64,000 nucleotides of DNA from Odiellus spinosus. Its lineage: Eukaryota; Arthropoda; Arachnida; Opiliones; Phalangiidae. The notes under the pieces are model-generated. The model was not told where the DNA came from, made no database searches, and saw only the letters and a list, made by a program, of their open reading frames with translations. The stretch is from the NCBI GenBank assembly GCA_963920705.1, contig OY987227.1, forward strand, positions 14,921,602-14,985,601, read 5' to 3'. Below are positions 3,001 to 50,769 of this stretch, piece by piece (the stretch's first letter is position 1; each line of letters opens with the position of its first letter). The position numbers and the translations under genes were made by a program.

Positions 3001-4336
3001 CGGCGTGAGGTTATAAATTGTAAAACAACGAGAGCATTGCGCGCTAAAAATTAGAACTCGACTTAAAATATGATAGTATCACTTTTAAGACAGGAAAATC
3101 AATAAGTCTAATCTTTATTTTGCAACTCCACGAAAGTCTAGTCTAATGTTTAGTGATAATACGAGTTGATAAAGGGGTTGTTGTAGTCTGAATAAGTGTG
3201 TACTTATAGAAATATTAAGCACTAAAGATATTTCTATTTGATTTTAAATAATAATACTTAAAAAAAAATTTGTTAGGAAACTAATCGTTCTAAGATGACG
3301 ATTTTCAATTTGTTTATATTCCTTTAACCATCAATTTATTTACGAACACATGCGTACTTGGTACCCTAATTAAAAACGAAGAAGGACGACTTAATGATTG
3401 GTTAAAAAATAATATAAGAGATTAAGAGTTCCTCTGGTTGGATTCACGTGATCAGTATCACTAGACCTGCCGTAAAGGCGAAACGTTTAAGAATGGTAGT
3501 AATTTAGAGATAACTATTTTGGCTCTGAATCTGATAAGCTGCTTTCATTATTAATTACCGAAAAAAAAAAAAAAAAAAAAAAAACAAGTCGTCGTGATAA
3601 TTCTAGGTAACCGATGATAAACTTTGATTAATTGACTTTAAACTGAATTTCTAATTTGGCCCATAGAAGCTCTAATGCCATCGTCAATCAGATGGTTCAG
3701 TACGTTATAATAAAGCATATGGTGTCAAAGAGGCGGGGTTATCAGGAGTTATTTTTTAAATATTAAATAACCTTAACATTATGTCACTGATTCTAAAATA
3801 TTTGAATAAATTTCAACTTATAGGAACCTAGTATTTCTTTGTTTGTATATACCTTTTATCATAGACTGTAAAAACGGGGGGTATATAATTTTCATGAATT
3901 TTATACGATATCATCCGATATGACGAAGAATTGTTGTTTTTCTGTCAACTAACTCGCTATATATTAGGAATAAGAGTTGTTATCTTTGAATATATATGTT
4001 AGTATATATATGATGTAGGAGTTATAACAATTTATCGTCGAAAAATATACGAGATAGAGATGATATTTACTACTTATTTTGAAATACGAGTTGTATCTTT
4101 CTTTTTTTGACGCGCTTTGTGTCTCGTATACACTCACCCCTAAACCAAGGTTAAAACAGCGCCTCAATGCGTGTTACGCTCGTGCGTGGAGGTTGGTGTC
4201 CAGGGAGAAGCCGAACTAGTGGGGGCGAATAAGCGTCACAGTATCGCGTAATAAATTATTGCGCTCCTCAAGTCGATACATTACGTAACTTTGGGGTAAA
4301 TGGGGAGGATAATATAATTGATGATACGTGTTTGGT
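1..4336. other. Gene-free AT-rich DNA
   Basis: No coding region is supported here: open frames are short and lack recognisable domains or codon character. The stretch holds a dispersed repeat at about 1232-1378, which has a relative at 52459-52604, and an A-homopolymer at about 3561-3583. The rest is unremarkable AT-rich sequence. Confidence 0.6.
1232..1378. repeat. Dispersed repeat, copy 1
   Basis: This segment matches 52459-52604 over about 145 bases with scattered substitutions. Both copies share a GCTATCACGAT-like block, a GGTGGCGA/GATGGCGA core and a terminal GGTTCGATTTTAT. The first copy opens with TGCCTTCAAC, and the reverse complement of that (TTGAAGGCA) occurs in the second copy, which suggests a short terminal inverted repeat. 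No coding capacity is seen. It is probably an old non-autonomous element. Confidence 0.55.
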
Positions 4337-4716
4337 TTTAAAGGGAGAATGCAACCTGACAACAAGTGATTTTTATTGATTCATTATTGTTTAAATAGGC
4401 CTAATCCACTAGAGAAAAAATTTACGAACAAAAATTAAATTAGAAATAAATTTAAAACTTACCTGGAAAATAGGCTTAGCGGGATTCATGGAGCTCATGA
4501 AGATCTCGCGTGAACAACGGGCCTTTGCTCATTGGTCGCTAGACCTTTACACGGAGGCAATTCTGGATCTCCATGAATCCCGCTAAGCCTATTTTCTGTG
4601 TACGTTTTAAATTTATTTCTAGTTTGTTTGAACATTTTTACTGGTGGATTATGCCCATTTAAACGATAAGGAATTGATAAAAAATATCACTTATTAGGTT
4701 GCAGTCTCCCTTTAAC
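4337..4716. mobile_element. TTAA-flanked MITE, family B copy 1
   Basis: About 380 bp with long terminal inverted repeats. The left end reads TTAAAGGGAGAATGCAACCT and the right end is nearly its reverse complement, finishing CTCCCTTTAA. Inner inverted arms carry AGGCTTAGC, GGATTCATGG and CTCATTGGTCG. TTAA at both outer edges fits a TTAA target duplication. There is no transposase, so it is non-autonomous. Related copies occur at 14086, 15905 and 49587. The subterminal block beside the inner arm (ATTTATTTCTAG) is the sequence amplified as a satellite at 16141-22500. Confidence 0.8.
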
Positions 4717-14640: not shown

Positions 14641-15904
14641 ATTCCGTTTATTCTATAAAGATTCCCTTAAAAGCTTTTAAATAATCTACCCAACTCAGTC
14701 TTAGAGGAGTTAGTACCATAAATAAAAAGCAAAACTGAAAAGTTATATTCAAATGAAAGAAAAGCCCAAACATTCCATAGGATTTTTAGACAGCTATTAA
14801 TGTTAAAAATAAACATTTCGTTTAACTTTCCAAAAAGTCTTTTAAATTTAGGAAATTGAGTAGTAAACGCAACTCGTTTACAAGAAAAGTAGCCTTATAA
14901 ACTATTATAAATTAATTTATATAAGATGGGGTCTTCGACTAAGGTGGTCTATAGAGTACATAAATTTTGATGAAATACAGTTCCGAGGGCATCACGTATA
15001 TATACAGATCGAATCATTTAAAAATCAAAACGATCGAATAGAAAATACGAATCGTGTATGGAATAAATTTTGTTTTGAAATATTGCACTGGATAGCGATG
15101 GAGTTGTCAAACTTATTATAACACGCACCTCAAGGAAGTCGAGAGTGTACAATCTTGAAAGGGAGTCAATTTCCAATTGATAAACACGTTTTACTGACTA
15201 GATTTAGATAATTTCTAAGGTTGTATGTTTTCCTTTATATAATTTATATTCAAATAATTATAATTCGACCTGATGATGCATCTGTAAGACGCGAAACTAG
15301 TCGTCTTGAATCGTGAATGTATATTTCGCGTTTTTAGATTATAGACCAACTTTTTTGAAGTAAACTTGGTATAATTTACATGTTAAATGTCAGAGGGGTC
15401 AAAGTATAGTAAATAGTTCTAGCCTATAACTTTTATAATACTGTCATAAATATCGAATTTGTCAATTCTGAGGAGTTAAAAGGTTAAGGTTCAATATATT
15501 TTAAGCCTAACTCAGCCATGCCAATCAGAAATGATTAACGATGGTATATATTAGATAGCTATTTTTAACAATAGATTATATTATTCGTGTGTTCTGACAC
15601 GCACCAGATACCATTTAAGTTCAAAAGTTATTTTCTCTTCCTGCCTAAACCCTATAGTTCTCTTAAAGGTATAGATTTTCTTCGTCACCCTATATAGATA
15701 CTTCCCTCCGGCGCTTTTCCAATAGTTTGGAACTACCAAAGAACATGTTATTGGTGATCTTCTCAAAGAACTTGTTCGTAATCGTTGGCAAGCCGAAATT
15801 AGAAGGGGAAGTATCAATACTGGGTGACAGGCGAAAGAAACCCTAGGTTTAAATTCTAACATGACAAGCAGATTATATTGGTTTTCCAAACAACGGTGCT
15901 AATT
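14640..15904. other. Gene-free stretch with element fragments
   Basis: No gene is supported. A - strand frame at 15581-15889 (102 codons) overlaps fragments related to the TIR of the MITE at 12318 and is best read as transposon debris, not a gene. Confidence 0.5.
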
Positions 15905-16140
15905 TTTGATCAATTTCTTACAAACAAATATTAAACTAGAAATAAATTTAAAATTTACCCGGAAAATGGGCTTAGCTGGTTTCAAGGAGATCCTGAATTT
16001 ATTCGCATTGATGGGTCAGCGACCAATCGAATGTTATTGAAAGTCTCATGGAGATCTCGTCTTAACAACGGGCCTTTGCTCATTGGTCGCTGAGCAATCT
16101 CCATGAATCAAGCTAAGCCTATATTTTCGTTAAGTTTTAA
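15905..16140. mobile_element. MITE family B, copy 3, fused to the satellite
   Basis: The inner half of family B is present. Inverted subterminal sequence (CAAACAAATATTAAACTAG) comes first, then GGGCTTAGCTGG, the CAGCGACCAATCG / CTCATTGGTCGCTG inverted pair and AAGCTAAGCCTATATTTTC. After GTTAAGTTTTAAATTT it enters the 30-bp satellite with no break. The normal right terminus (GGTTGCA...CCTTTAA) is not found after the array, so this copy has lost or been separated from its right end. Confidence 0.8.
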
Positions 16141-19100
16141 ATTTATTTCTACTTTAATATTCGTTTGTAAATTTATTTCTACTTTAATATTCGTTTGTAA
16201 ATTTATTTCTACTTTAATATTCGTTTGTAAATTTATTTCTACTTTAATATTCGTTTGTAAATTTATTTCTACTTTAATATTCGTTTGTAAATTTATTTCT
16301 ACTTTAATATTCGTTTGTAAATTTATTTCTACTTTAATATTCGTTTGTAAATTTATTTCTACTTTAATATTCGTTTGTAAATTTATTTCTACTTTAATAT
16401 TCGTTTGTAAATTTATTTCTACTTTAATATTCGTTTGTAAATTTATTTCTACTTTAATATTCGTTTGTAAATTTATTTCTACTTTAATATTCGTTTGTAA
16501 ATTTATTTCTACTTTAATATTCGTTTGTAAATTTATTTCTACTTTAATATTCGTTTGTAAATTTATTTCTACTTTAATATTCGTTTGTAAATTTATTTCT
16601 ACTTTAATATTCGTTTGTAAATTTATTTCTACTTTAATATTCGTTTGTAAATTTATTTCTACTTTAATATTCGTTTGTAAATTTATTTCTACTTTAATAT
16701 TCGTTTGTAAATTTATTTCTACTTTAATATTCGTTTGTAAATTTATTTCTACTTTAATATTCGTTTGTAAATTTATTTCTACTTTAATATTCGTTTGTAA
16801 ATTTATTTCTACTTTAATATTCGTTTGTAAATTTATTTCTACTTTAATATTCGTTTGTAAATTTATTTCTACTTTAATATTCGTTTGTAAATTTATTTCT
16901 ACTTTAATATTCGTTTGTAAATTTATTTCTACTTTAATATTCGTTTGTAAATTTATTTCTACTTTAATATTCGTTTGTAAATTTATTTCTACTTTAATAT
17001 TCGTTTGTAAATTTATTTCTACTTTAATATTCGTTTGTAAATTTATTTCTACTTTAATATTCGTTTGTAAATTTATTTCTACTTTAATATTCGTTTATAA
17101 ATTTATTTCTACTTTAATATTCGTTTGTAAATTTATTTCTACTTTAATATTCGTTTGTAAATTTATTTCTACTTTAATATTCGTTTGTAAATTTATTTCT
17201 ACTTTAATATTCGTTTGTAAATTTATTTCTACTTTAATATTCGTTTGTAAATTTATTTCTACTTTAATATTCGTTTGTAAATTTATTTCTACTTTAATAT
17301 TCGTTTGTAAATTTATTTCTACTTTAATATTCGTTTGTAAATTTATTTCTACTTTAATATTCGTTTGTAAATTTATTTCTACTTTAATATTCGTTTGTAA
17401 ATTTATTTCTACTTTAATATTCGTTTGTAAATTTATTTCTACTTTAATATTCGTTTGTAAATTTATTTCTACTTTAATATTCGTTTGTAAATTTATTTCT
17501 ACTTTAATATTCGTTTGTAAATTTATTTCTACTTTAATATTCGTTTGTAAATTTATTTCTACTTTAATATTCGTTTGTAAATTTATTTCTACTTTAATAT
17601 TCGTTTGTAAATTTATTTCTACTTTAATATTCGTTTGTAAATTTATTTCTACTTTAATATTCGTTTGTAAATTTATTTCTACTTTAATATTCGTTTGTAA
17701 ATTTATTTCTACTTTAATATTCGTTTGTAAATTTATTTCTACTTTAATATTCGTTTGTAAATTTATTTCTACTTTAATATTCGTTTGTAAATTTATTTCT
17801 ACTTTAATATTCGTTTGTAAATTTATTTCTACTTTAATATTCGTTTGTAAATTTATTTCTACTTTAATATTCGTTTGTAAATTTATTTCTACTTTAATAT
17901 TCGTTTGTAAATTTATTTCTACTTTAATATTCGTTTGTAAATTTATTTCTACTTTAATATTCTTTGTAAATTTATTTCTACTTTAATATTCGTTTGTAAA
18001 TTTATTTCTACTTTAATATTCGTTTGTAAATTTAATTTCTACTTTAATATTCGTTTGTAAATTTATTTCTACTTTAATATTCGTTTGTAAATTTATTTCT
18101 ACTTTAATATTCGTTTGTAAATTTATTTCTACTTTAATATTCGTTTGTAAATTTATTTCTACTTTAATATTCGTTTGTAAATTTATTTCTACTTTAATAT
18201 TCGTTTGTAAATTTATTTCTACTTTAATATTCGTTTGTAAATTTATTTCTACTTTAATATTCGTTTGTAAATTTATTTCTACTTTAATATTCGTTTGTAA
18301 ATTTTTTCTACTTTAATATTCGTTTGTAAATTTATTTCTACTTTAATATTCGTTTGTAAATTTTTTTCTACTTTAATATTCGTTTGTAAATTTTTTTCTA
18401 CTTTAATATTCGTTTGTAAATTTTTTTCTACTTTAATATTCGTTTGTAAATTTTTTTCTACTTTAATATTCGTTTGTAAATTTTTTTCTACTTTAATATT
18501 CGTTTGTAAATTTTTTTCTACTTTAATATTCGTTTGTAAATTTTTTTCTACTTTAATATTCGTTTGTAAATTTTTTTCTACTTTAATATTCGTTTGTAAA
18601 TTTTTTTCTACTTTAATATTCGTTTGTAAATTTTTTTTTCTACTTTAATATTCGTTTGTAAATTTTTTTCTACTTTAATATTCGTTTGTAAATTTTTTTC
18701 TACTTTAATATTCGTTTGTAAATTTTTTTCTACTTTAATATTCGTTTGTAAATTTTTTTCTACTTTAATATTCGTTTGTAAATTTTTTTCTACTTTAATA
18801 TTCGTTTGTAAATTTTTTTCTACTTTAATATTCGTTTGTAAATTTTTTTCTACTTTAATATTCGTTTGTAAATTTTTTTCTACTTTAATATTCGTTTGTA
18901 AATTTTTTTCTACTTTAATATTCGTTTGTAAATTTTTTTCTACTTTAATATTCGTTGTAAATTTATTTCTACTTTAATATTCGTTTGTAAATTTATTTCT
19001 ACTTTAATATTCGTTTGTAAATTTATTTCTACTTTAATATTCGTTTGTAAATTTATTTCTACTTTAATATTCGTTTGTAAATTTATTTCTACTTTAATAT

Positions 19101-22100
19101 TCGTTGTAAATTTATTTCTACTTTAATATTCGTTTGTAAATTTATTTCTACTTTAATATTCGTTTGTAAATTTTATTTCTACTTTAATATTCGTTTGTAA
19201 ATTTATTTCTACTTTAATATTCGTTTGTAAATTTATTTCTACTTTAATATTCGTTTGTAAATTTATTTCTACTTTAATATTCGTTTGTAAATTTATTGCT
19301 ACTTTAATATTCGTTTGTAAATTTATTTCTACTTTAATATTCGTTTTGTAAATTTATTGCTACTTTAATATTCGTTTGTAAATTTATTGCTACTTAATAT
19401 TCGTTTGTAAATTTATTGCTACTTTAATATTCGTTTGTAAATTTATTGCTACTTTAATATTCGTTTGTAAATTTTTATTGCTACTTTAATATTCGTTTGT
19501 AAATTTATTGCTACTTTAATATTCGTTTGTAAATTTATTGCTACTTTAATATTCGTTTGTAAATTTATTGCTACTTTAATATTCGTTTGTAAATTTATTG
19601 CTACTTTAATATTCGTTTGTAAATTTATTGCTACTTTAATATTCGTTTGTAAATTTATTGCTACTTTAATATTCGTTTGTAAATTTATTGCTACTTTAAT
19701 ATTCGTTTGTAAATTTATTGCTACTTTAATATTCGTTGTAAATTTATTGCTACTTTAATATTCGTTTGTAAATTTATTGCTACTTTAATATTCGTTTGTA
19801 AATTTATTGCTACTTTAATATTCGTTTGTAAATTTATTGCTACTTTAATATTCGTTTGTAAATTTATTGCTACTTTAATATTCGTTTGTAAATTTATTGC
19901 TACTTTAATATTCGTTTGTAAATTTATTGCTACTTTAATATTCGTTTGTAAATTTATTGCTACTTTAATATTCGTTTGTAAATTTATTGCTACTTTAATA
20001 TTCGTTTGTAAATTTATTGCTACTTTAATATTCGTTTGTAAATTTATTGCTACTTTAATATTCGTTTGTAAATTTATTGCTACTTTAATATTCGTTTGTA
20101 AATTTATTGCTACTTTAATATTCGTTTGTAAATTTATTGCTACTTTAATATTCGTTTGTAAATTTATTGCTACTTTAATATTCGTTTGTAAATTTATTTC
20201 TACTTTAATATTCGTTTGTAAATTTATTTCTACTTTAATATTCGTTTGTAAATTTATTTCTACTTTAATATTCGTTTGTAAATTTATTTCTACTTTAATA
20301 TTCGTTTGTAAATTTATTTCTACTTTAATATTCGTTTGTAAATTTATTTCTACTTTAATATTCGTTTGTAAATTTATTTCTACTTTAATATTCGTTTGTA
20401 AATTTATTTCTACTTTAATATTCGTTTGTAAATTTATTTCTACTTTAATATTCGTTTGTAAATTTATTTCTACTTTAATATTCGTTTGTAAATTTATTTC
20501 TACTTTAATATTCGTTTGTAAATTTATTTCTACTTTAATATTCGTTTGTAAATTTATTTCTACTTTAATATTCGTTTGTAAATTTATTTCTACTTTAATA
20601 TTCGTTTGTAAATTTATTTCTACTTTAATATTCGTTTGTAAATTTATTTCTACTTTAATATTCGTTTGTAAATTTATTTCTACTTTAATATTCGTTTGTA
20701 AATTTATTTCTACTTTAATATTCGTTTGTAAATTTATTTCTACTTTAATATTCGTTTGTAAATTTATTTCTACTTTAATATTCGTTTGTAAATTTATTTC
20801 TACTTTAATATTCGTTTGTAAATTTATTTCTACTTTAATATTCGTTTGTAAATTTATTTCTACTTTAATATTCGTTTGTAAATTTATTTCTACTTTAATA
20901 TTCGTTTGTAAATTTATTTCTACTTTAATATTCGTTTGTAAATTTATTTCTACTTTAATATTCGTTTGTAAATTTATTTCTACTTTAATATTCGTTTGTA
21001 AATTTATTTCTACTTTAATATTCGTTTGTAAATTTATTTCTACTTTAATATTCGTTTGTAAATTTATTTCTACTTTAATATTCGTTTGTAAATTTATTTC
21101 TACTTTAATATTCGTTTGTAAATTTATTTCTACTTTAATATTCGTTTGTAAATTTATTTCTACTTTAATATTCGTTTGTAAATTTATTTCTACTTTAATA
21201 TTCGTTTGTAAATTTATTTCTACTTTAATATTCGTTTGTAAATTTATTTCTACTTTAATATTCGTTTGTAAATTTATTTCTACTTTAATATTCGTTTGTA
21301 AATTTATTTCTACTTTAATATTCGTTTGTAAATTTATTTCTACTTTAATATTCGTTTGTAAATTTATTTCTACTTTAATATTCGTTTGTAAATTTATTTC
21401 TACTTTAATATTCGTTTGTAAATTTATTTCTACTTTAATATTCGTTTGTAAATTTATTTCTACTTTAATATTCGTTTGTAAATTTATTTCTACTTTAATA
21501 TTCGTTTGTAAATTTATTTCTACTTTAATATTCGTTTGTAAATTTATTTCTACTTTAATATTCGTTTGTAAATTTATTTCTACTTTAATATTCGTTTGTA
21601 AATTTATTTCTACTTTAATATTCGTTTGTAAATTTATTTCTACTTTAATATTCGTTTGTAAATTTATTTCTACTTTAATATTCGTTTGTAAATTTATTTC
21701 TACTTTAATATTCGTTTGTAAATTTATTTCTACTTTAATATTCGTTTGTAAATTTATTTCTACTTTAATATTCGTTTGTAAATTTATTTCTACTTTAATA
21801 TTCGTTTGTAAATTTATTTCTACTTTAATATTCGTTTGTAAATTTATTTCTACTTTAATATTCGTTTGTAAATTTATTTCTACTTTAATATTCGTTTGTA
21901 AATTTATTTCTACTTTAATATTCGTTTGTAAATTTATTTCTACTTTAATATTCGTTTGTAAATTTATTTCTACTTTAATATTCGTTTGTAAATTTATTTC
22001 TACTTTAATATTCGTTTGTAAATTTATTTCTACTTTAATATTCGTTTGTAAATTTATTTCTACTTTAATATTCGTTTGTAAATTTATTTCTACTTTAATA

Positions 22101-22500
22101 TTCGTTTGTAAATTTATTTCTACTTTAATATTCGTTTGTAAATTTATTTCTACTTTAATATTCGTTTGTAAATTTATTTCTACTTTAATATTCGTTTGTA
22201 AATTTATTTCTACTTTAATATTCGTTTGTAAATTTATTTCTACTTTAATATTCGTTTGTAAATTTATTTCTACTTTAATATTCGTTTTTAAATTTATTTC
22301 TACTTTAATATTCGTTTGTAAATTTATTTCTACTTTAATATTCGTTTGTAAATTTATTTCTACTTTAATATTCGTTTGTAAATTTATTTCTACTTTAATA
22401 TTCGTTTGTAAATTTATTTCTACTTTAATATTCGTTTGTAAATTTATTTCTACTTTAATATTCGTTTGTAAATTTATTTCTGGTTTAATAATAGTTTGTA
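16141..22500. repeat. 30-bp satellite array, about 212 copies
   Basis: A head-to-tail array of a 30-bp unit containing TTTATTTCTACTTTAATATT followed by CGTTTGTAA. Most copies are identical. Variants come in blocks: an A-to-T form (TTTTTTTCT) at about 18301-18950 and a T-to-G form (TTATTGCT) at about 19291-20185, with a few 1-2 bp indels near 17961, 18031, 18633 and 19170. The last unit is degenerate (CTGGTTTAATAATAG), as is usual at array edges. The unit differs by two bases from the subterminal sequence of the family B MITE seen at 50650-50680. Because 30 is a multiple of 3, one + frame stays open for 627 codons (repeating KFISTLIFVC). That frame is not a gene. Confidence 0.97.
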
Positions 22501-22889
22501 AATTTTACGAATTTGTAACTAAATATGGCGTTCCCAAACAGTTTCATTAGGTTATATTATAATTTAAACCCCGTATTCTGACTACATCAAAATATTCAAA
22601 TTTAAAGTTTGTTTAATTAAAATTTAATTTTAACGTAGGATGTTATGTAACTAGAAATATTTTAAAAATTAAGTTTATGTCTATAATTACAGCTTTCAAA
22701 ACCAAAAACTGTCTAACTCGGCAAATAAATTCAATATTATTAAAGTTTAATATAATTAATTGCTAATGTATGTTTTAGCATTTATAAAATGAAGCATTTT
22801 GAATTGACAATATAATTAACCTTAATAGTGTTTTCATAAAACCGCTTATACAGTGGAAAATTATCTAATAGTAATTAAAAAAACCCTTT

Positions 22890-34400: not shown

Positions 34401-37400
34401 CAATTTTGGCCCGCCCTTTAGATACAATTCGGCAAAAATCGAACCGACATAACTTCATTATCGTCCGAAAAATGTTTTCCCAGTCACCAAAACTTTGTAA
34501 TGAGATTACGCAATCTCGTGATTTAATTATTTAAACGCGAATTCGGCAGTTTTTCGCTTTTTCCCTGAATAAATAGAAGATGAAAAAGAAGCGTTTTAAA
34601 ATCGATGTTCTAAATTAAGCGGGAAGAAAATCCTCTCTAATACGTATTACACACTAACTTAATACGCAGACATACTGGTCGAGGAAAAATTGAAATATTT
34701 AATAAAAACCCTTAACTTGAAGAATTTGCTTTAAGAAACGTTCGGGCCTAATTTCAAGACCATATCGTCGAAACAAAATCCAACGTAACTTAATTCCCGT
34801 TCACAGGTTCTTTATAAAAAGTCTATTCCGTTCATTACTGGTTTGCCTTGATATACTAACAATAATTGTTTTTGCGTAACTTTTCCCCTCGGTTTTCCCC
34901 GAGTGAACGAAGCGATAGATGATTTAACTGCTTAAGAATATATTCTGGCTGACTTTCAAAAATATACAAAAGACCCCCTATAAGTTCGTTATTTTATAAA
35001 CTTACCGCCAGGATTATGTAAACATTAGTAAACTTTAATTAAAGTTTGGATCGAAGGTTTTGACATTTAAAGACACAAACATTAGATTCGAAGCGATTTA
35101 ATTCGCCTGGGAATAAAAATGCGTCTTATATTTGAATATTTATAAACTAGGATATGGGCAGAGGCTCTAAGAAGATGAACTTGTTTAATTTTAAAAAATG
35201 ATGTATTGAATAAATTGTCTCAAATATTATAACATTCGTATTAACTAAAAGCACCCCTATAAGGATTTTAACTTAATGTTTACTAGTAACTTCGTAATTT
35301 TTCCAACGATATATATAATGTAAATATTAAAACCCAAACAAGGTCGTGCTTATGTTCAAGAACATATGAGTTTGAGAAATTAGTTTACCCCAGGGTCGTC
35401 GCAAGCCCAAATTATTAGGTAGGGCCGGGCACACTCTTTGAAAGTTAAAACAATAGTATTAAGTTTTAATTTTTCGTCATATCAAAAGTAAATGACATGT
35501 GCTATGTAAGTTAACACTATTTGCCCATGAATTAGACAATGTTGCTATAAGTTTCTAGTCCCCTTAATCTATGTTAAACCTTTGGAAGGGTAAAAATTTC
35601 TACAACACTTTATGCTTTACCAACGTGACTCTTGGCCTGGATTTAGGTAACTTTTTTAGGTTTGTAACAAGTATACCTTACGTAAATGACAAACCAACTT
35701 AATATTAAAGCAAGTAAGCAACGTTAAATAAAATAAACTTACAATATTTCTATCGTATTTTCCAGGATAACGTAGGTCAACTTCTAGCCACGTGTCACTC
35801 AAACCTCCATCCGCGTGTTCCAATTGGCGCTAAAGTTTCAGAAAATAGAACAATTGGTTAAACACCGATATCTATAGGACCAAGGCCTATAAAAACGTAG
35901 GGAAAAATATTTATCGAAAAGTTATTTTAAATATTAATGTTCGCGCTGTATACAATATTTTTTATTCAGCCCAAAAAAACTAGAAGAATATAAAAAATTC
36001 GAAACCGGGATAAAATAATTTGGATCCAACCCAATAATTTAGGAACCTTTATAACTATGCTTTATAGTGACACGAGAAAAAGAATAGCTCGAGGCCGTTC
36101 GTTGGCGTACAAAAAACCGTTTTATGGCAAGAGATTCGAAACTTCTAATATATTCTCCCAGGGGCAAAATATCTTTTCATAATCTTGTCTCAAATGGAAA
36201 CGTCGATAGCATTTATCCGCCGGAATTATAGACTAAAAATTCAGCGTTAAAAAATATAATTATACAAGGGGGCCCACTGTTAGTAAATTTACTATGGCTT
36301 CGATTAAATAACGATTTTTTAATTATAATTAACAAAGATGAAAAAAATGTCAAGATGAAAATAAGTATATAGCCGATTTTTGAAGGGAAAATGACAGTAT
36401 TCGAAAGAAAAAAGTTTGTTTTCATAACTGGTGCCAGAAGCCGTTGAAACCCTCTTCGGCTTCTGTTTGGTGCGCGTCTTGATTTCAAAGTTAGGCTTAA
36501 GTTATTTAAAAGGTTTAAAACTTTTCAAGAAAGAAATGCTTATTTTAATATCCCTTCTCGAAAAATAATGGCTTTAAATGCCGAGCAGACGACAGTTAAA
36601 CCATTCAACTTCCTTTGATCATGTATATAGCTAAAGATGGACCTAACCGTCATTTAAAAACTGACTTTGACACTCTTTAACAACAGGTATTAAGTATAGG
36701 CAACAGGTAATAAACAGTTCGTTTTCAAACTCACCAGTCGAACGTATCCCTGAAGATATCCCTGTATATGATCGAACGAAGCTAGCGCCACAATCTCTCG
36801 AGTATTCTCTTTCTTGTAGACCGGTTCAATTGTGCCGCAGGTCCATCTGAAGTTCCGTTCCTTCTTATGAACAACGACCGATCTTCCAACGATGCTTCGA
36901 GGCCCGTGAAGGGGCAAATTGGAATCCGTCACCGTCAGGCGTTCTACGTCTTTACCGTCCAATAACCCGTATTTACCTGTCGGCGAGAAAAAAGGGACAC
37001 GCGCGATTGTTAATTTTTTTAGATACATTTCAAATTTGGGTGTGGCAAAAAATATTCGCGTGTTATCTTACCGCTAAGATCACCGACTTCGTACTGATCG
37101 TTTGATCCGACGCTAGCGGCTGGACCCAAAGATACATCGATGCCGAAAGGGTTGTAGTGTCCGTAAACGGCATCGTTGGAACAGGGGAACTCTTTTTCCA
37201 AGGGGACCGACACTTCGTGAACGTGGTAGGCATGCGCGATTTCGTTTAAACCGTCGAAACTGACCTCCACGTCGGTTAAATCGCCAGATGAAGGTTGATG
37301 GAATCTGGAAATATTTTAAGTGAAGGTGGTATTATGTTATGGTGTTTTGGCAGAGTATTTTTTTGAAAATGAGTTACGCTTCATAAGGAAATGTAAATAT

Positions 37401-39716
37401 TCCAGGTTTCATTGGAGTTTTATTTACACATAATTAAGAAGAAATATAAAAATAAGCACTTACGTAACAAATCCAGTGACGTTGGATTCGATGAAACGTC
37501 CAGCGTGCCAAGACTTTACCCCAACTTCTAAAGCGTGATATGATTTTACAGGTGTACAAGCGAGCCTATCCCCTCTATGAGGCGGGGCCTGATCGTCGTG
37601 TATCACAAGAGAATGTCCAATGATAGTGTAAGGTCCGGATAAGGGTAAATGAGTGTCCGTGAAGAAAAACTTATTTTTCAGCGTGCCTTTCCTGGCTGCG
37701 ACGGTGATCCTACCGTGTTTCGCGGTTAAATCGCCTACTTCGCAACGTAAGGAGTTTTCGGCGTTGCATTGTCTGTCGTACTGCCGACCACGACCGGCTT
37801 CGTAAGGGTTATACTCCGCGCCGGCACTCTCGCATCGTTTGGTCCAGTTGTAAAAATCGCGACCAGGCGCGTCTTCGTGTATGTCCCATCGATGGTTCTC
37901 GGTATTGTTCAAAGATCCGTCTGAATAGGTCAAATCGCCGAAGATGGAGGTTTCGGCTTGATAATCGTCGAACTTTTGACGGAAAATTATCCTTCCAGCC
38001 AACGGATAGTAAAAGTTCGCTATGGCGGTTCTGGTTTTAGGGTAACCAATCAAGGCGCAAATCCATCTACTTCCGTCCGGACGATGAATGACGACCGAAC
38101 GACCGATAATGCTGTATACTCCAAATAGGGGCAAATTGAAATCCGCGTAAATGCCGAAATGAATGTCAGCCAAAGGTCCCGAATCTAACAAACTATATTT
38201 CCCACTCATGTCACCGACTTCGTACTCGTCACTGGTTCCAGTTCCAGGTTTTGGACTCTTCTTGGCGTTGACTTCGAATGGGTTAAAGTGCCCACCAACC
38301 GCGTCGTCGGAACACTGGTTGTCGTCGGAAAAAACCTTGTCCTGGACTGGATACAAGTGAACGTGGTAACCGGAACCACGACCCCTGAGATTCTTTAAGT
38401 TAACCGTGACCACAGTCGGGTCCATTCGGTATCTTTGGCTGAAACGTATGAATCCTTTGACACCATCCGTGTTGAAGACTGCCTTGGCTTCTTTGGGTTG
38501 AACGAAGACCACCGGGGCGCAAGCCAAAATCTTCTGGTTAACATCGTATACGACTAAGTAAATACTACGACCGCCTTCCAAAGACGACAAAGCGATGTTA
38601 CTGTCCACGAAGAAACGTTTCGAGTAACGAGAATTGGTGGCCCCGATTACCACTTGACCGTGTTTTTTGGCTAAATCACCTAGTTTGCAACTATCGTGGT
38701 TTTCCTCGGAACAGTTCGTGTCATCAGTGTTCTCGGGGTCGTACAACGCCGTTAAGTAATCGCAACGACGAACGGCTCTCAAGTTACCCTCTCCGGTATC
38801 CAAAACGTCCGTAACCATTAGTTTCCAGTCGTGACGAGTCGATGGCGTGTAATCAGCCGAGATACGGAACAAATTGGAAAAAATGGTAGTGTCTCCGTGT
38901 TCCCCCTAATTTCGATACCAACAATTTTTAAGCCTAATCCGATTTGAGAATTTATTTTAACGAACATACCTGTCTGAATATGACTTTCCCAGCTATGGGG
39001 GCGGTGAGTATAGCTTCGGCCGTTTTAACGTCACCACTATCTAGAATATTCGCGCATGTTCTTGCGTCATCGTTTGCTTTTGAGCTTTTGAGAAGCAACG
39101 AGCGACCCCAAATGTTCTTTCTTCCTCTAAGTTTAATGTCGGGATCGGTAAATTCTTGGATCGTCCCGTTTGGAGGCGGAATGATAATTGGGCCATGCTT
39201 TCGCGACATGTCTTGGACACTAATTGAGATAAATGATCACAAAACCAATCAAAGTGTTACTCAAATATTGAATAATTATTTATCTCGTCAACTTTAAAAA
39301 CTATGTTAAACTATATCTCGATTAAGAACTGGTGGGAGTCAAGTAGGTCAGCCTCTTTCCCTAAGAACTTTTGTTGTGTTTCAAAAATAACTCTTACATA
39401 CACCCACACGTTTAAAATTAATTTTGGGCGTTGTTGACTTACGATTGTCCAAGTTCGCTCGAAGAGCAAGGATTCTTCATGTCGTATAAGACTGGAAATG
39501 TATGGATACCCCAAGCGTAAGACTTGGGCTCGGGGGCCGTGAAAGTGGCACCTTCTGCCGGTTCCTCCGGGTATAACCATTCCCTGGACATGAGATGGAC
39601 GGAAATGGTGACATTGTCTTCAGTAGATTTTTGGTAAAAAGTGACGTTGCCCAGAACACCGCCGATATTAAATGAGGCGTGCAATGTTATTCCTCCACTA
39701 CCGGCTTCGCTTTGGT
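31358..39716 (-). CDS. Secreted copper-only SOD repeat protein (multi-exon, ends unresolved)
   Basis: Ten exons splice in matching phase into about 1,015 codons of tandem superoxide-dismutase-like domains. Coding segments on + coordinates, in transcription order: 39716-39443, 39219-38970, 38905-37464, 37304-37072, 36976-36735, 35829-35743, 32621-32496, 31894-31750, 31683-31563, 31482-31358. Each full domain shows a G-x-(I/V)-x-F strand, the HVH position, a GHFNPF position, GD(L/M)xxK and a (V/I)(V/I)xH...C end. Domains around 38.1 kb and 37.1 kb keep all four copper histidines; the others lack most. Zn ligands and the electrostatic loop are absent, as in fungal SOD5-type and animal copper-only SOD repeat proteins, which disproportionate superoxide outside the cell. 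Many N-x-S/T sites fit secretion. The signal peptide exon and the stop codon were not found. Confidence 0.88.
31563..31683 (-). CDS. SOD repeat gene, exon i (domain 6 end, domain 7 start)
   Basis: A 121-nt exon, phase 1 to 2 (acceptor TTTGTATCCATAG, donor GTTCGTAATG). Encodes VMGRSIIIFDKVGHRLGCAN, the GRSVVIH...C segment with phenylalanine in place of the last copper histidine, so domain 6 has none of the four ligands. It ends VRKYPGFT, the opening of domain 7. The weak donor is chosen because its phase matches the next exon and because the orphan exon at 48853-48959 ends at the same place in its domain with GTTAGT. Confidence 0.7.
31750..31894 (-). CDS. SOD repeat gene, exon h (domain 6)
   Basis: A 145-nt exon, phase 0 to 1 (acceptor TTTTCTGTAG, donor GTAAAATTT). 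Encodes LRCEMGDLAGKHGPITVGGG and FSDINLPLVGNYS, which closely parallel CEVGDLTAKHGRI in domain 4. Confidence 0.88.
32496..32621 (-). CDS. SOD repeat gene, exon g (domain 6)
   Basis: A 126-nt exon in phase 0 at both ends (acceptor TTAATTTAG, donor GTATGTTTT). Encodes TKGHKWSVFVNQVAHD, with VFV where HVH should be, and RCIAAGYAWNPY, with tryptophan where the third copper histidine should be. The cysteine is kept. The fold is retained without the metal site. Confidence 0.88.
35743..35829 (-). CDS. SOD repeat gene, exon f (domain 6)
   Basis: An 87-nt exon in phase 0 at both ends (acceptor AACTTTAG, donor GTAAGTTTATT). Encodes RQLEHADGGLSDTWLEVDLR then YPGKYDRNI, a strand pair at the usual place after the domain opening. 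Both junctions join in frame to its neighbours. Confidence 0.85.
36735..36976 (-). CDS. SOD repeat gene, exon e (domain 5 end, domain 6 start)
   Basis: Acceptor TCTCGCCGACAG, donor GTGAGTTTG, phase 1 to 0. Encodes KYGLLDGKDVERLTV, NLPLHGPRSIVGRSVVVH (fourth copper histidine) and FRWTCGTI. Domain 5 thus has a complete copper site. The linker ends QGYVRL, the first strand of domain 6. Confidence 0.93.
37072..37304 (-). CDS. SOD repeat gene, exon d (domain 5, first half)
   Basis: Acceptor AATATTTCCAG, donor GTAAGATAAC, phase 2 to 1. Encodes the FHQPSSGDLTDVEVSFDG strand, then AYHVHEVSVPL with the HVH pair, C-SNDAVYGHYNPFG with the third histidine, and QYEVGDLSG, again without the zinc histidine. 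Confidence 0.93.
37464..38905 (-). CDS. SOD repeat gene, large exon c (domains 2, 3 and 4)
   Basis: A single 1,442-nt exon (acceptor CGAAATTAG, donor GTAAGTGC, phase 0 to 2) encodes three domains with no intron. Domain 2 (38905 to about 38500) has WKLMV for HVH, ALYDPE for GHFNPF and VVYDV for VVIH, so no site. Domain 3 (about 38480 to 38030) has YHVHLYPV, GGHFNPF and SVVIH, plus the C...C pair and the SRWIC arginine: a complete copper-only site. Only nine residues separate the last His from Cys, where Cu/Zn SODs have the long electrostatic loop. YEVGDMSG replaces the zinc-binding RHVGD. Domain 4 (about 38010 to 37530) has DIHED, AEYNPYE and LVIHDD, so two of the four histidines are lost. Confidence 0.95.
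38970..39219 (-). CDS. SOD repeat gene, exon b (domain 1 end, domain 2 start)
   Basis: Acceptor ATCTCAATTAG; donor GTATGTTCG; 250 nt, entering in phase 2 and leaving in phase 0. Encodes VQDMSRKHGPIIIPPPNG (equivalent of the GDLxxKHGxI strand) and WGRSLLLKSSK, where the copper histidine of the V-V-x-H motif is lysine, then C (CANIL). The next domain opens with PIAGKVIFRQ. Domain 1 therefore lacks a copper site. Confidence 0.88.
39443..39716 (-). CDS. SOD repeat gene, exon a (degenerate domain 1, first part)
   Basis: Acceptor TTTAATTATAG, then phase-1 entry; donor GTAAGTCAAC, exit phase 2. It encodes QSEAGSGGITLHASFN, the strand GVLGNVTFYQ, then VTISVHLMS and WGIHTFPVLYDM. The usual HVH is reduced to G-I-H and the GHFNPF segment is replaced by CSSSELGQS, so this domain cannot hold copper in the usual way. 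Glycosylation sites NVT (twice) are present. The upstream exon that supplies the first base of the entry codon was not found. Confidence 0.85.
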
Positions 39717-41689
39717 CTATAATTAAATTGAAAAAATTATACACGGCAAATAAATATGAAATAAAAATTAATTTTCATATTTTTAGGAATTAGTATTACT
39801 GCATACAACTGGAATTTATTTTTTGTTTCTGGGTCAATGTAAAATTATTTCCGTAGTGAGGATAATCTACTGGGTTCAAATTAACCTACATCGGAGAAAA
39901 GTTAACTATATAGATAATCTTATATAAGATTTGGCATTATTACCTAATAAAATATGGGTGTCTTTATTAAGGAAAGGATTTAATATATAAGTCAAAATTA
40001 TAACTTCATAACTCATTTGAAAATAAAATGGACTTAAAATTACCGTTGTTAAAATTAAGTATATGTACTTAAAACTCGAAAATAATCATAATCATCGAAA
40101 AAAATGGCGAGATTAAACTTAATCTACCGTGGCTTAATGTTAATACAATTACATCTTCAAGGAGAGAAAGGAAAAAAAAAAATTGATCTGGCCCCTATTA
40201 TCCGATTTAATCATTTTGATCTATCTTCCTCCATAAATCTGAAAAGCAATCAACTTATAGTGTAACTAACCTAACCGGTAACCCTTATATTAAACCCAAA
40301 TATTTAATCTACCATTGATAAAATATCATGCAATCTTTTAATGTAAGTGATCACGGTTCATTAGTTGGAAAATTATCTCTTAAATCTAGAAATAATGGAA
40401 CGTTCCGGCCAATGCAGTGTTTTAAAGCAGAAGATACACTTATTAAGAGGCACCTCAATTATTTTATCTTAAACTTTTTTTTTTTCCAAATTAACTCCGC
40501 TCCCAAAGTTTACTTTCTCAATTATTTGTTTAAAATTGATTGGTGCTTTAGAAAATTGGTTTATTTTGCAAATAAGGGGGCCCTATTCCGCGCAAGTCCG
40601 GTTTGAGATATATTTTGGTAGTTCAGGTCATTCATGTCAAGATTTTAGATCATCATCGAATTTTTAAAAGCTTTCAAAACAAATGATTAATCATATACAA
40701 TTAACTTTTTTTAAAAGTGAAATTCACGAAATTTTAAATATTTTTTTTCCGAGTGATTTCATTTAATCGGAAATCCAATTTATTTAAGATTTAAACTAAA
40801 GAACCAAACCCACTTCTTGACCCAAATAATGTCTTTTTTAGCCGAATCAAATTCTAAAGCCAAGAAAAAAAAAAATTAACTACAACATTTAGGTTTTGTT
40901 TTGGTTTTTTCGATCTAAACAAAAACAGAGGCCAAAAAAATGTTTACGCTTAAAAATAAAAGACAGACATAATTCTAGGGAGCTTTGTTCCGTTTTAATG
41001 ATATCATAACTATTATTTTCGGTCTATTGCGTTTTTATAAGGTATTTACCTAAGTATTTATGAGCTTACTCAGGTTGTCATATAAGTTTAAACAGCGTTT
41101 AGGACTAATCTGACTAGAAAGGGTGGGTGAACACGTACCCGGACATTAAAGTGAGGCTGTAACCATTTTTTCAATGGCCCATGGATTATATAAGATTTTT
41201 CATTCTTTCATAAAACCATATTTAAAATTTTAGACCTCTGGGTTGACGCGTTTTCAAGAAACTTCAAAATTAACAAGCCAAAAATATATATTTTTTTCCG
41301 AGTATGACTATAATTTACTTATGAAATGTAGGACTTTTTGGATTAAGTACGTTCACAATAAAGATCGCGCGAAAGCAACCGTATCACGTGTCAGAAGGTG
41401 CAAGAATCAACAATATAGGCGCTATAAAATTGGAGGTCGTGAAAAACGTGACAGTGTCACTTCAAATTATTTGTTCAACTACATCCACTTACGTAGCGTG
41501 TATAAATTCTCTCAAAAGTCTCAAATTAGGCTAAATTTGCTGAAAAATTAAATTGTTTGAATTATATAAACAGTTAACTTTGTGTAAAACACTGCTCTTT
41601 TAATTGTAATTAGTCTAAAGTATAAATTGATTAAATCTATTAGAACTATGACAGCAAGTTAAAATAAGGCGTAACATTTACAATTTGGC

Positions 41690-42010
41690 TTAACAATAAA
41701 AATATACCGGTATTACAGTAATGGTATAATTAGGCTTGGCAATTAAGGTACAGGTATTAGAGTATAGAATTAGGCTTAGCAATTAAGCTACCATACATGA
41801 ATCATAGAATAATGTTAGAATTAGGCTTAACAATTAAGTTACCGTACATGCATTAGAGTAAAGCTATAATAAGGCTTAATAATTGACAATTAAGCTACCG
41901 GGATTAGAATAGTGTTAAGACAGGCTTAGCATGCAATTAAGCTACCGTTCAGGTTAGAATAAGGCTTAACAATCAAGCCAGGGGTTTTAACATTAGAATT
42001 AAGCTGAATA
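41690..42010. repeat. Degenerate tandem repeat, unit about 60 bp
   Basis: Five or more diverged copies of a unit containing AGGCTTAGCAATTAAGCTACC and CATTAGAGTA/TAGAATA words, with variable spacing. A single similar segment lies at 7846-7880. The AGGCTTAGC word also occurs in family B MITEs. Confidence 0.7.
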
Positions 42011-46430: not shown

Positions 46431-47904
46431 ATTTTACCTCTTAACTACGTTAAAAACAATTACATTTTTAAAGGGATGTTGACACTATTTTTAAAAAAGT
46501 CAACGGATCTTAGGTTTTTCATATAATTTTGAAATATTATTCAAAATTAAAATGGCAAAACTAAATAAATTAAAATGTTTTTCGCTGGTTGACCCAGAAT
46601 ATGAAAAATTTATTAGGTTTAAAATGAAAGGCAAGACATTTTGGATTAAAGGGAGAGTGAAGAGTTTTTTTTTATCGATTAGACTATTTAAAAATAAAAC
46701 TTGTTCGGAAATTGCTTCTGAATTGTAATTGGCATTCAATTAAAAGGAGAACCTCAAACCAATCAAAAAACTCCCTTGGATTGCGAGCGTTAAAATATTC
46801 AAAAACGAAATTCAGCGCGATTCAAAGAGTGTTCCGGGGATTTGATGTAACAGACTCTTCATTCAAATTAAATTTGAAATTTCCGACGAGATGAAATTAT
46901 CTCGGTAATTGTGCTCCCGTTCAATAATAGTTAACAAAGGCACTTAGGTTAGATTGATACACAATGTTAAACCTCATAGCAAAAAAAGCATTCGTTTTCT
47001 TAACTACACAAACACACGAACATAACAGAAGGAAGGAAAGATTTTGCGCTTAAAAACACTTAAACAAATCACCACTATTATTTGGGCTGAATTACTTCAA
47101 TAAAGAAACTAAAAGGATAGAATTTTGAAAAATGTTTTCCCGCTAAAAAAAAACACTCTTCGAATTCTGTCGAATTACTCTAGTAAGATAAAGTAATTAT
47201 CGCAAATTTCATTTACCGGCGATTTTTAACCTGTAAAACATGTGGTTTTACTAAGTTAATTAGGTAAAAATCACCCGAGGGAAATTTTTGTATTTAAAAA
47301 AATGTAAATCTATTTTTTTTTTTTTTTTTTTTTTTTTCCTAAGTTACTTCCTTAGCTACAAGGGATTCCGGGGCTGACACTTTTAATTCGATCACTTTTT
47401 GAATAAATTGAATCGTGTAAAAACGAAATTTCCCTACGCTAGTATCTAGGTTACGTTATCTTTATATATATTTAATATAGCCAAAATTTTAAGAAGTCCT
47501 TGAATGGCCGGGTAGTGGCAAAAACTGTATTTTCAATATTATTTCGCTTGTGTGAGAAATTTTAATATTCCGGTTTTTATCAATCCAAACCCACACAGAC
47601 GTAAATAGGTACTAACTACCAGTTTTTCAATGGTGTGGTTCCTTAAAAACTGCCCCTTTCCCCCTAAAAGAAAGTTTCTTATTAAATTTACAAGCTACTT
47701 AAATAAAATTAGGCCAGTTAGATATTTGAAAGGTTAAATTGGGAAAAACGCAAGAACATTGGGATTATATTTCAGTACTGCTAAGGAATTGTAACTTAAG
47801 TAATTTATTACAAATCCACTAATTAAACCGGAAATTGGTTAGTTAAAAGTCTTGTGAAGTGGTTTATATTGTGCCAATTTTGTTGCGTAAGGATATTGAC
47901 AAAA

Positions 47905-48120
47905 TTAATCTCAATCAACTGACAATGTATTATAAATTTAACTCTAAAACTAATCTCAATCAACTGACAATGTATCAGATAAATTTAACTTCAAAACTAA
48001 TCTCAATCAACTGATAATGTATTAGATAAATTTACCTTAAAAACTAATCTCAATCAATTGGCAATTTATTAGATAAATTTAACTTCAAAACTAATCTCAA
48101 TCAACTGACAATGTATGACA
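47905..48120. repeat. 46-48 bp tandem repeat, about 4.5 copies
   Basis: Copies starting near 47905, 47951, 47998, 48045 and 48092 share TAATCTCAATCAACTGACAA followed by TGTAT and AGATAAATTTAACTTCAAAA, with a few substitutions. The last copy is cut short. Confidence 0.9.
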
Positions 48121-49992: not shown

Positions 49993-50769
49993 TACTTTTT
50001 AAATAATTGCAGCCGAATTTTTGCGCGGGCGCCACCTAGCAGAGATCGAGTGAAGAACTAGAGAGACTCAAGAGAGGTCAGACTCCAGGGTTTCGCTACA
50101 CAGTTATCGTTTATTTAATTGCACTTGAGGATAAATAGGAGTTTAATTTCACACTTTTATGTGTTAACGTACCTTCAATTTAGAATTAGTTTTCGAATTC
50201 ATTGTCAATCGGTTCCAGAATAGAGAAAAAGTCAAACGATGTGTCCACCAACCAGCCCAATCAAAAAGAAAATGGCTACCAATCTATGCCAGAAGACCGG
50301 GATTATTTTTATGACCGGAAACTAATTCCTATCACGTGACGGAGAGGCGTCTGATTGGTCAAACTCTTAAAGTTGGCGCGACAAGTTGCCATGAAATTGG
50401 GTCAGCAACCCAATTTTTTCAGGACAATTTTAATTTTGCAAACTCGACCAATTTTTATTCACACGGAGCAACTAGTTGGTTCAATTTGAGTTGCCACAAC
50501 TAGTTGGATCTAAAAATTGGCTGGTGTGAAAGGCCCTTTAGGAAGATCTCATCTTAACCACGGACTTTCGCTCATTGGTCGATTACCCTTCATAGCGAAG
50601 AAGTTCAGGATCTCCATGAATCCAGCTAAGAATATTTTCTGGGTAAGTTTTAAATTTATTTCTAGTTTAATATTTGTTTGTATTTTTTTTATTGGGTTGG
50701 ATTAAGCCTATTTAAATGATAAGGAATCGATATAAAATCATTTGTTGATAGGTTGCATTATTCCTTTAA
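49587..50769. mobile_element. MITE family B, copy 4, with 0.76-kb insert
   Basis: Outer ends TTAAAGGTAGAATGCAACAT (49587) and GGTTGCATTATTCCTTTAA (50769), inner arms AATAGGCTTAGCTGGATTCA and AATCCAGCTAAG. Between CATTGATATGGGTCAG and GAAGATCTCATCTTAACC, about 760 bp replace the normal centre. The right subterminal block (AAATTTATTTCTAGTTTAAT then ATTTGTTTGTA) at 50650-50680 is the closest single copy of the 30-bp satellite unit. Confidence 0.82.
49773..50538. mobile_element. Insert within family B MITE
   Basis: This segment is not in other family B copies. It contains repeated CAACTAGTTGG / CAATTAGTTGG words near both ends, a 30-base T-run at 49962-49991, a GC-rich AGGTGGCGCC motif (reverse strand, about 50030-50040) and, at the right edge, TGGCTGGTGTGAAAGGCCCT, which looks like a DNA-transposon terminus. 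No matching left terminus was found, so the inserted element is probably truncated or composite. Confidence 0.5.

Follow-up and report, generated by a model that had tools for sequence, protein, structure and literature searches.

The 30-bp tandem array described here, in the genome of Odiellus spinosus, is very probably the product of a local and recent expansion of one segment of the arm of a TTAA-type MITE. The window analysed is the 64,000-nucleotide stretch C3:14921602-14985601 of a 443-Mb assembly in 286 contigs, and the array lies at 16134-22505 on its forward strand, with a period of 30, 212.4 copies, 99% matches and the consensus unit GTTTGTAAATTTATTTCTACTTTAATATTC (TRF). The direction, from MITE to array, is well supported because the block corresponding to the unit is single in nearly all arms seen, belongs to the inverted repeat, and was found as a long array in one copy. 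The unit lies within the MITE and in register with it, as in a MITE-derived tandem array, and tandem units of tens of bp (30 bp x 212) place the locus among the minisatellites; long arrays at several loci, as in satellite DNA, were not found among the matches listed for the array probe. The array is therefore described as a single-locus, large minisatellite and not as a genome-wide satellite. An original prediction, made from the sequence alone, had spoken of the birth of a satellite in place; the derivation of the array from a MITE block holds, although 'satellite' is a generous word for one locus. The features concerned are as follows, in window coordinates.

4338-4716, + strand: complete MITE copy with TTAA at both ends, used for comparison (terminal-motif check)
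15849-15917, - strand: possible decayed left outer arm, weaker than the right (anchored alignment)
15918-15953, - strand: inverted subterminal block in the left arm, with the family bases G20 and T30 retained
15954-16138, + strand: stem-and-loop interior of the MITE copy that holds the array, with about 87-92% identity to the closest copies sampled
16134-22505, + strand: tandem array (TRF; wraparound decomposition)
16139-16168, + strand: first array unit, which is the right-arm MITE block, with C20 and C30 already present
18352-18953, + strand: 20 A13T units in one run (about 18 runs if placed randomly)
19343-20183, + strand: 28 T16G units, with a 29th at 19283 (about 25 runs if placed randomly)
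20170-22287, + strand: perfect 30-bp period over 2118 bp, with zero departures
22470-22499, + strand: last unit, a diverged edge unit with A19G, T28A and C30A and with the MITE's G20 retained
22501-22567, + strand: possible decayed right outer arm ending in TTAA, weak (anchored alignment to the MITE outer arm)
50652-50682, + strand: single block in another MITE copy, used for comparison

The MITE family is roughly 400 bp long, and its TTAA flanks and its ends, which read AGGGAGAATGCAACC, identify it by sequence as T2/Kolobok-like. TTAA followed by AGGGAGAATGCAACC agrees with the terminal AGGRR (AGGGA here) included in the T2-MITE definition in the relevant passage of PMC6004289. Ends were checked in 16 of the 17 MITE-like clusters from an unselected survey (see below), and six of these 16 copies had the terminal motif (at most 3 edits) and the TTAA target site at both ends. 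The complete copy at 4338-4716 opens with TTAAAGGGAGAATGCAACC and closes with its inverse, and the block sits inside each arm, opposite its partner in the other arm. As predicted, the array unit is two bases away from the single block at 50652-50682, the differences being G20C and T30C; C30 is also present in some single-unit arms.

It had further been proposed that a MITE copy's block is where the array begins, that the same block is present in inverted form on the left of that copy and that the amplified unit is part of the element's inverted repeat, and all three proposals were borne out. The first unit is the right-arm block itself, and the inverted block was recovered as 36 nt with 92% complementarity to an array stretch, the MITE arms of this copy extending over 74 nt at 84%. 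The anatomy at 15918-16170 is that of complete family copies, with the block facing its inverted partner. A single strand of the array-bearing copy folds with z = -10.7 (0/200 shuffles equally good); this hairpin, together with a MITE block in every other matching place examined, shows that the resemblance between unit and MITE is not chance.

For the claim that the right terminus of this copy is missing the result is mixed: the terminal motif is unrecognisable on the right, and on the left as well, while 22501-22567 offers a weakly aligned candidate for a decayed arm. Against three reference arms, and with a TTAA end required, the score of this candidate is equalled or exceeded by 0.8, 0.4 and 1.6% of 1500 stretches drawn at random from the genome; the figures are 2.2, 0.7 and 4.5% when TTAA is not required. 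The corresponding values for 15849-15917 on the left are 24, 3 and 29% with the TTAA end and 33, 4 and 37% without it. A first anchored test had given 0.35% for the right flank and 58% for the left flank against 2000 random genomic stretches, and comparison with shuffles was not convincing for either, with 30 to 307 of 400 as good on the right and 36 to 187 of 400 on the left. The right terminus may be absent altogether or merely decayed, and the anchored alignments point weakly to decay.

Within the array, 154 of the 215 pieces of a wraparound alignment equal the consensus exactly. The same alignment places the A13T variant in a single block of adjacent units and the T16G variant in two runs, the second consisting of the lone unit at 19283, whereas random placement of 20 and 29 variant units gives about 18 and 25 runs respectively. 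Variants have therefore spread between neighbouring units, as expected of slippage or unequal exchange inside the array. All interior indels are confined to 17963-19764 and may be real or assembly errors, and the length of the array is that of one assembly. An incomplete unit, AAATTT, follows the last full unit at 22500. Eight array units alone give no strong fold (z +1.4), and no Rfam family was found above threshold within the window. Open reading frames of up to 945 aa from stop to stop run through the array, but these were discarded, since a period that is a multiple of three and free of stops produces such frames by itself. Most likely the array has no function for host or element, and individuals are expected to differ in how many units they carry.

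The whole assembly was searched with a 201-bp array probe, and as only the best candidates were scored the counts are lower bounds. At least 91 matches were obtained, 49 of them in the array and at least 42 outside it in 39 places, the longest outside matches among those listed being 143 bp at 81% and 74 bp at 96%. All 39 outside places were fetched. Every one of them (39/39) contains a MITE block arm, and in 35/39 the terminal motif is recovered when as many as 6 edits in 25 bases are allowed, a tolerance at which some matches arise by chance. The original prediction had asked whether other long arrays begin at the same MITE position; no second long array appeared among the matches listed for this probe in the 443-Mb assembly. 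Satellite sequence free of the MITE, which the original prediction had named as the observation that would count against it, was not found either in these 39 places or at the 15 exact unit junctions listed below, all 15 of which lie in the MITE.

Some of these copies hold more than one unit. In L010 (C1) two exact units stand in the array's register; an incomplete unit comes next, then about 12 MITE bases, and there the arm breaks off. The terminal motif is present at the other end of this copy. The recognisable outer end of the left arm of L010 (749-823) is lost, as in the array arm. L009 (C12) contains about four degenerate 29-bp units within a MITE with TTAA at both ends, and the unit states seen among copies of the family are thus one, two, about four degenerate and about 212. 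In L019 (C11) a second block lies about 50 bp further on in a different register. L012, reported by TRF as a 30-bp repeat with 2.0 copies at 80%, was rejected as a two-unit arm, as only one block is present, next to which, towards the inside, lies sequence that resembles it. Separately, the five MITE copies L068, L069, L070, L078 and L080 belong to one subfamily and resemble each other closely, which probably reflects recent transposition.

The unit junction, GTTTGTAAATTTATTTCTA, was also scanned across the assembly with up to one mismatch, the reversed junction serving as control. The scan gave 323 matches (270 + 53) against 0 + 0 for the control, and of the 323, 202 lie in the array and 121 outside. 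The exact junctions among the matches listed, which do not include the exact places in the array, fall in 15 outside places, and all of the 15 examined are in MITE sequence. They comprise the L010 dimer, one longer partial second unit (L071), one rearranged copy (L079) and 12 single-unit arms, the last matching because their inner border reads GTTTGT by chance. About 106 outside junctions have one mismatch, and the sequence in the seven of them listed, GTTTTTAAATTT, is what a normal single block shows.

An unselected survey took in 20 stretches of 10 kb from fixed positions on C1-C4, together with the window without the array, 257,280 bases in all. It contained 17 MITE-like clusters with 17 block arms, and three block-like matches elsewhere, and an adjacent second unit was found in 0/17 of the block arms in these bases. 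On the earlier question of single or double units in most MITE copies, single units occur in nearly all arms seen, and L010 is the copy with two in the array's register. The 12 clusters found in the 200 kb that lie beyond the window extrapolate to approximately 27,000 copies, albeit roughly so, as 5/12 were in one stretch and four contigs were sampled. Multi-unit arms are rare, and the borders of the block alone do not make expansion frequent.

These borders nevertheless suggest where the period comes from. In many arms a near copy of the first ten bases of the block lies 30 bp after its start, the two AT-rich, 10-bp stretches being AAATTTATTT and AAATTT(A/T)TTT at a spacing of 30 bp, and such a direct repeat would set both the period and the register of an array. 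A perfect border repeat was found in 26/44 block matches overlapping search hits and in 0/32 of the others, which include a few chance block-like ones and mostly have an imperfect border repeat or none. This control ruled out a perfect direct repeat as a general feature of the arms, and the frequency of perfect repeats is therefore partly a selection effect. Models of minisatellite birth at short repeats, according to the relevant part of PMC3389668, expect an array with an incomplete terminal unit, and the array ends in one. A consensus of arms chosen by similarity scores best at lag 30, which 0/150 shuffles reach; in 15 unselected arms (16 of the 17 clusters' arms entered and one was lost at a stretch end) lag 30 scores 16.3 of 30, and lags 18 and 24 score 15.9 and 15.7. 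These scores no more than suggest that an ancient, degraded 30-bp copy adjoins the block on its inner side. It would be a bold extension, and a doubtful one, to regard each of thousands of MITE copies as a latent satellite seed by virtue of its direct-repeat-bounded unit, perhaps with an older copy inside, and to suppose that many other minisatellites here arise likewise.

The following order of events is inferred from these observations. Expansion would have started from a subterminal block lying between near-identical AT-rich stretches 30 bp apart, and slipped-strand pairing or unequal exchange between these stretches could have turned one unit into two, with slippage as the presumed first step and pausing at the long MITE hairpin perhaps helping. 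Two or more identical units would then have allowed further slippage or unequal crossing-over up to about 212 units, homogenising the interior, while the diverged unit at the right edge would be an older survivor. The expansion appears much younger than the element, since the period is perfect over 2118 bp, against a distance of about 8-13% between the MITE body and its closest sampled relatives. The diverged edge unit still has G20, which suggests that a second unit was already there when the large expansion began. Of the predicted local amplification inside a transposon end, the large expansion is the one step that is clearly local; the first doubling was possibly inherited and may predate the insertion, because another copy, L010, has exactly two units in the shared register.

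How far back the doubling goes is the point on which the closest rival differs. A source MITE with two units might have spread by transposition, leaving only the growth to about 212 units to this locus, which is somewhat unlikely but deserves consideration. L010 carries two units and no more, and both their register and, once the element is turned to match, their arm are those of the array; C30 is common to the two copies, L010 scores highest among the relatives compared with the array copy, and G20 in the last array unit places the second unit probably before the spread of G20C. Against this, a tree of 20 interiors (the array copy and 19 of 74 pooled copies, the score rules having dropped L009) is a star in which the array copy, L010 and L019 stay apart (3 changes, against 2.9 on average in shuffles), and C30 occurs in single-unit arms too. 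The length or homogeneity of the array could in part be an effect of assembly, an unlikely reading that draws on the concentration of indels at 17963-19764 with 2.1 kb of perfect period on one side; the non-array flanks on both sides and the distinct variant runs act as anchors against it, and other long arrays are present in the assembly.

Rather less likely still is rolling-circle amplification, with a one-unit circle copied and re-inserted at the block by homology. It would also give a long, homogeneous array in register, and long perfect stretches are seen, but later local duplication is needed in any case for the contiguous variant runs and the diverged edge unit, and a second insertion of the array was absent from the matches listed. 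Capture of a pre-existing satellite by the MITE, as proposed for miDNA4 of Xenopus in the pertinent section of PMC12628747, is very improbable here: the block is single in both arms of copies around the genome and is part of the inverted repeat, and the matches listed include no MITE-free array. Local expansion of a MITE arm segment thus remains the preferred reading.

The phenomenon is already known, and the O. spinosus locus is a clean further example of it. The comparisons that follow are with the systems as described in the relevant portions of the cited papers. In Xmix/Xstir of Xenopus, an internal segment of a TTAA T2-MITE has been amplified into tandem repeats (PMC6004289; PMC12628747), and the shared traits are a TTAA-target MITE, the AGGRR terminus (AGGGA here) and a tandemly amplified segment; the likeness is one of description, and Xstir is a large repeat family whereas one locus was found here. 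In Tetris of Drosophila virilis, TIR-220 repeats expand to as many as 66 copies, which is thought to disrupt the element (PMC4079207). There, too, the element is non-autonomous and the expanding repeats lie in its terminal inverted repeat, but the unit of about 220 bp is a regular part of the element and varies in number by copy, whereas the block here is normally single. The miDNA4 motif of Xenopus tropicalis exists as one unit or as an array, with AT-rich short direct repeats alongside as the proposed trigger (PMC12628747), and resembles the O. spinosus MITE in both respects; it differs in belonging to a Tc1/mariner MITE and in that the motif is held to be captured. Haber and Louis and Taylor and Breden, as summarised in PMC3389668, place minisatellite birth at short or noncontiguous direct repeats, and the 5-10 bp direct-repeat bounds or incomplete terminal unit of these models recall the array, although that summary, as far as it is cited here, ties such births to no particular transposon end. 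Further MITE-to-tandem-repeat cases are mentioned in passages of the reviews PMC6947457, PMC9659126 and PMC12628747. What the present case contributes is one assembly in which one MITE family holds one, two, about four and about 212 units in a common register, together with candidate seeds at the unit borders, making models of minisatellite or satellite birth testable within one species.

Long tandem arrays are common in the 200 kb surveyed, where a 20-bp unit x 52 at 99% and a 22-bp unit x 33 at 97% were found. A 155-bp array fills the whole 10 kb of L059 (1-10000; C2:33000001-33010000), and its unit seems to hold what we take to be a tRNA-type promoter box, perhaps making it a tandem SINE. 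L060 (1-9995, C3) and L048 (1905-3847, C1) apparently belong, by eye, to one 100-bp satellite family on opposite strands, which in one case also fills the whole 10-kb stretch. At L051, a 38-bp array (3736-4137, 10.6 copies, 99%) lies about 40 bp from a MITE at 4180-4587 with TTAA ends. In the window, TRF reports a 47-bp unit x 4.7 at 47900-48116 and a unit of about 51 bp x 2.4 at 41728-41884. The window also contains, at 36690-39774 on the reverse strand, a gene encoding repeated Cu/Zn superoxide dismutase domains, in which the ORF at 37460-38872 matches Pfam Sod_Cu (E 5e-23) in two stretches and the adjoining ORFs are similar by eye only.
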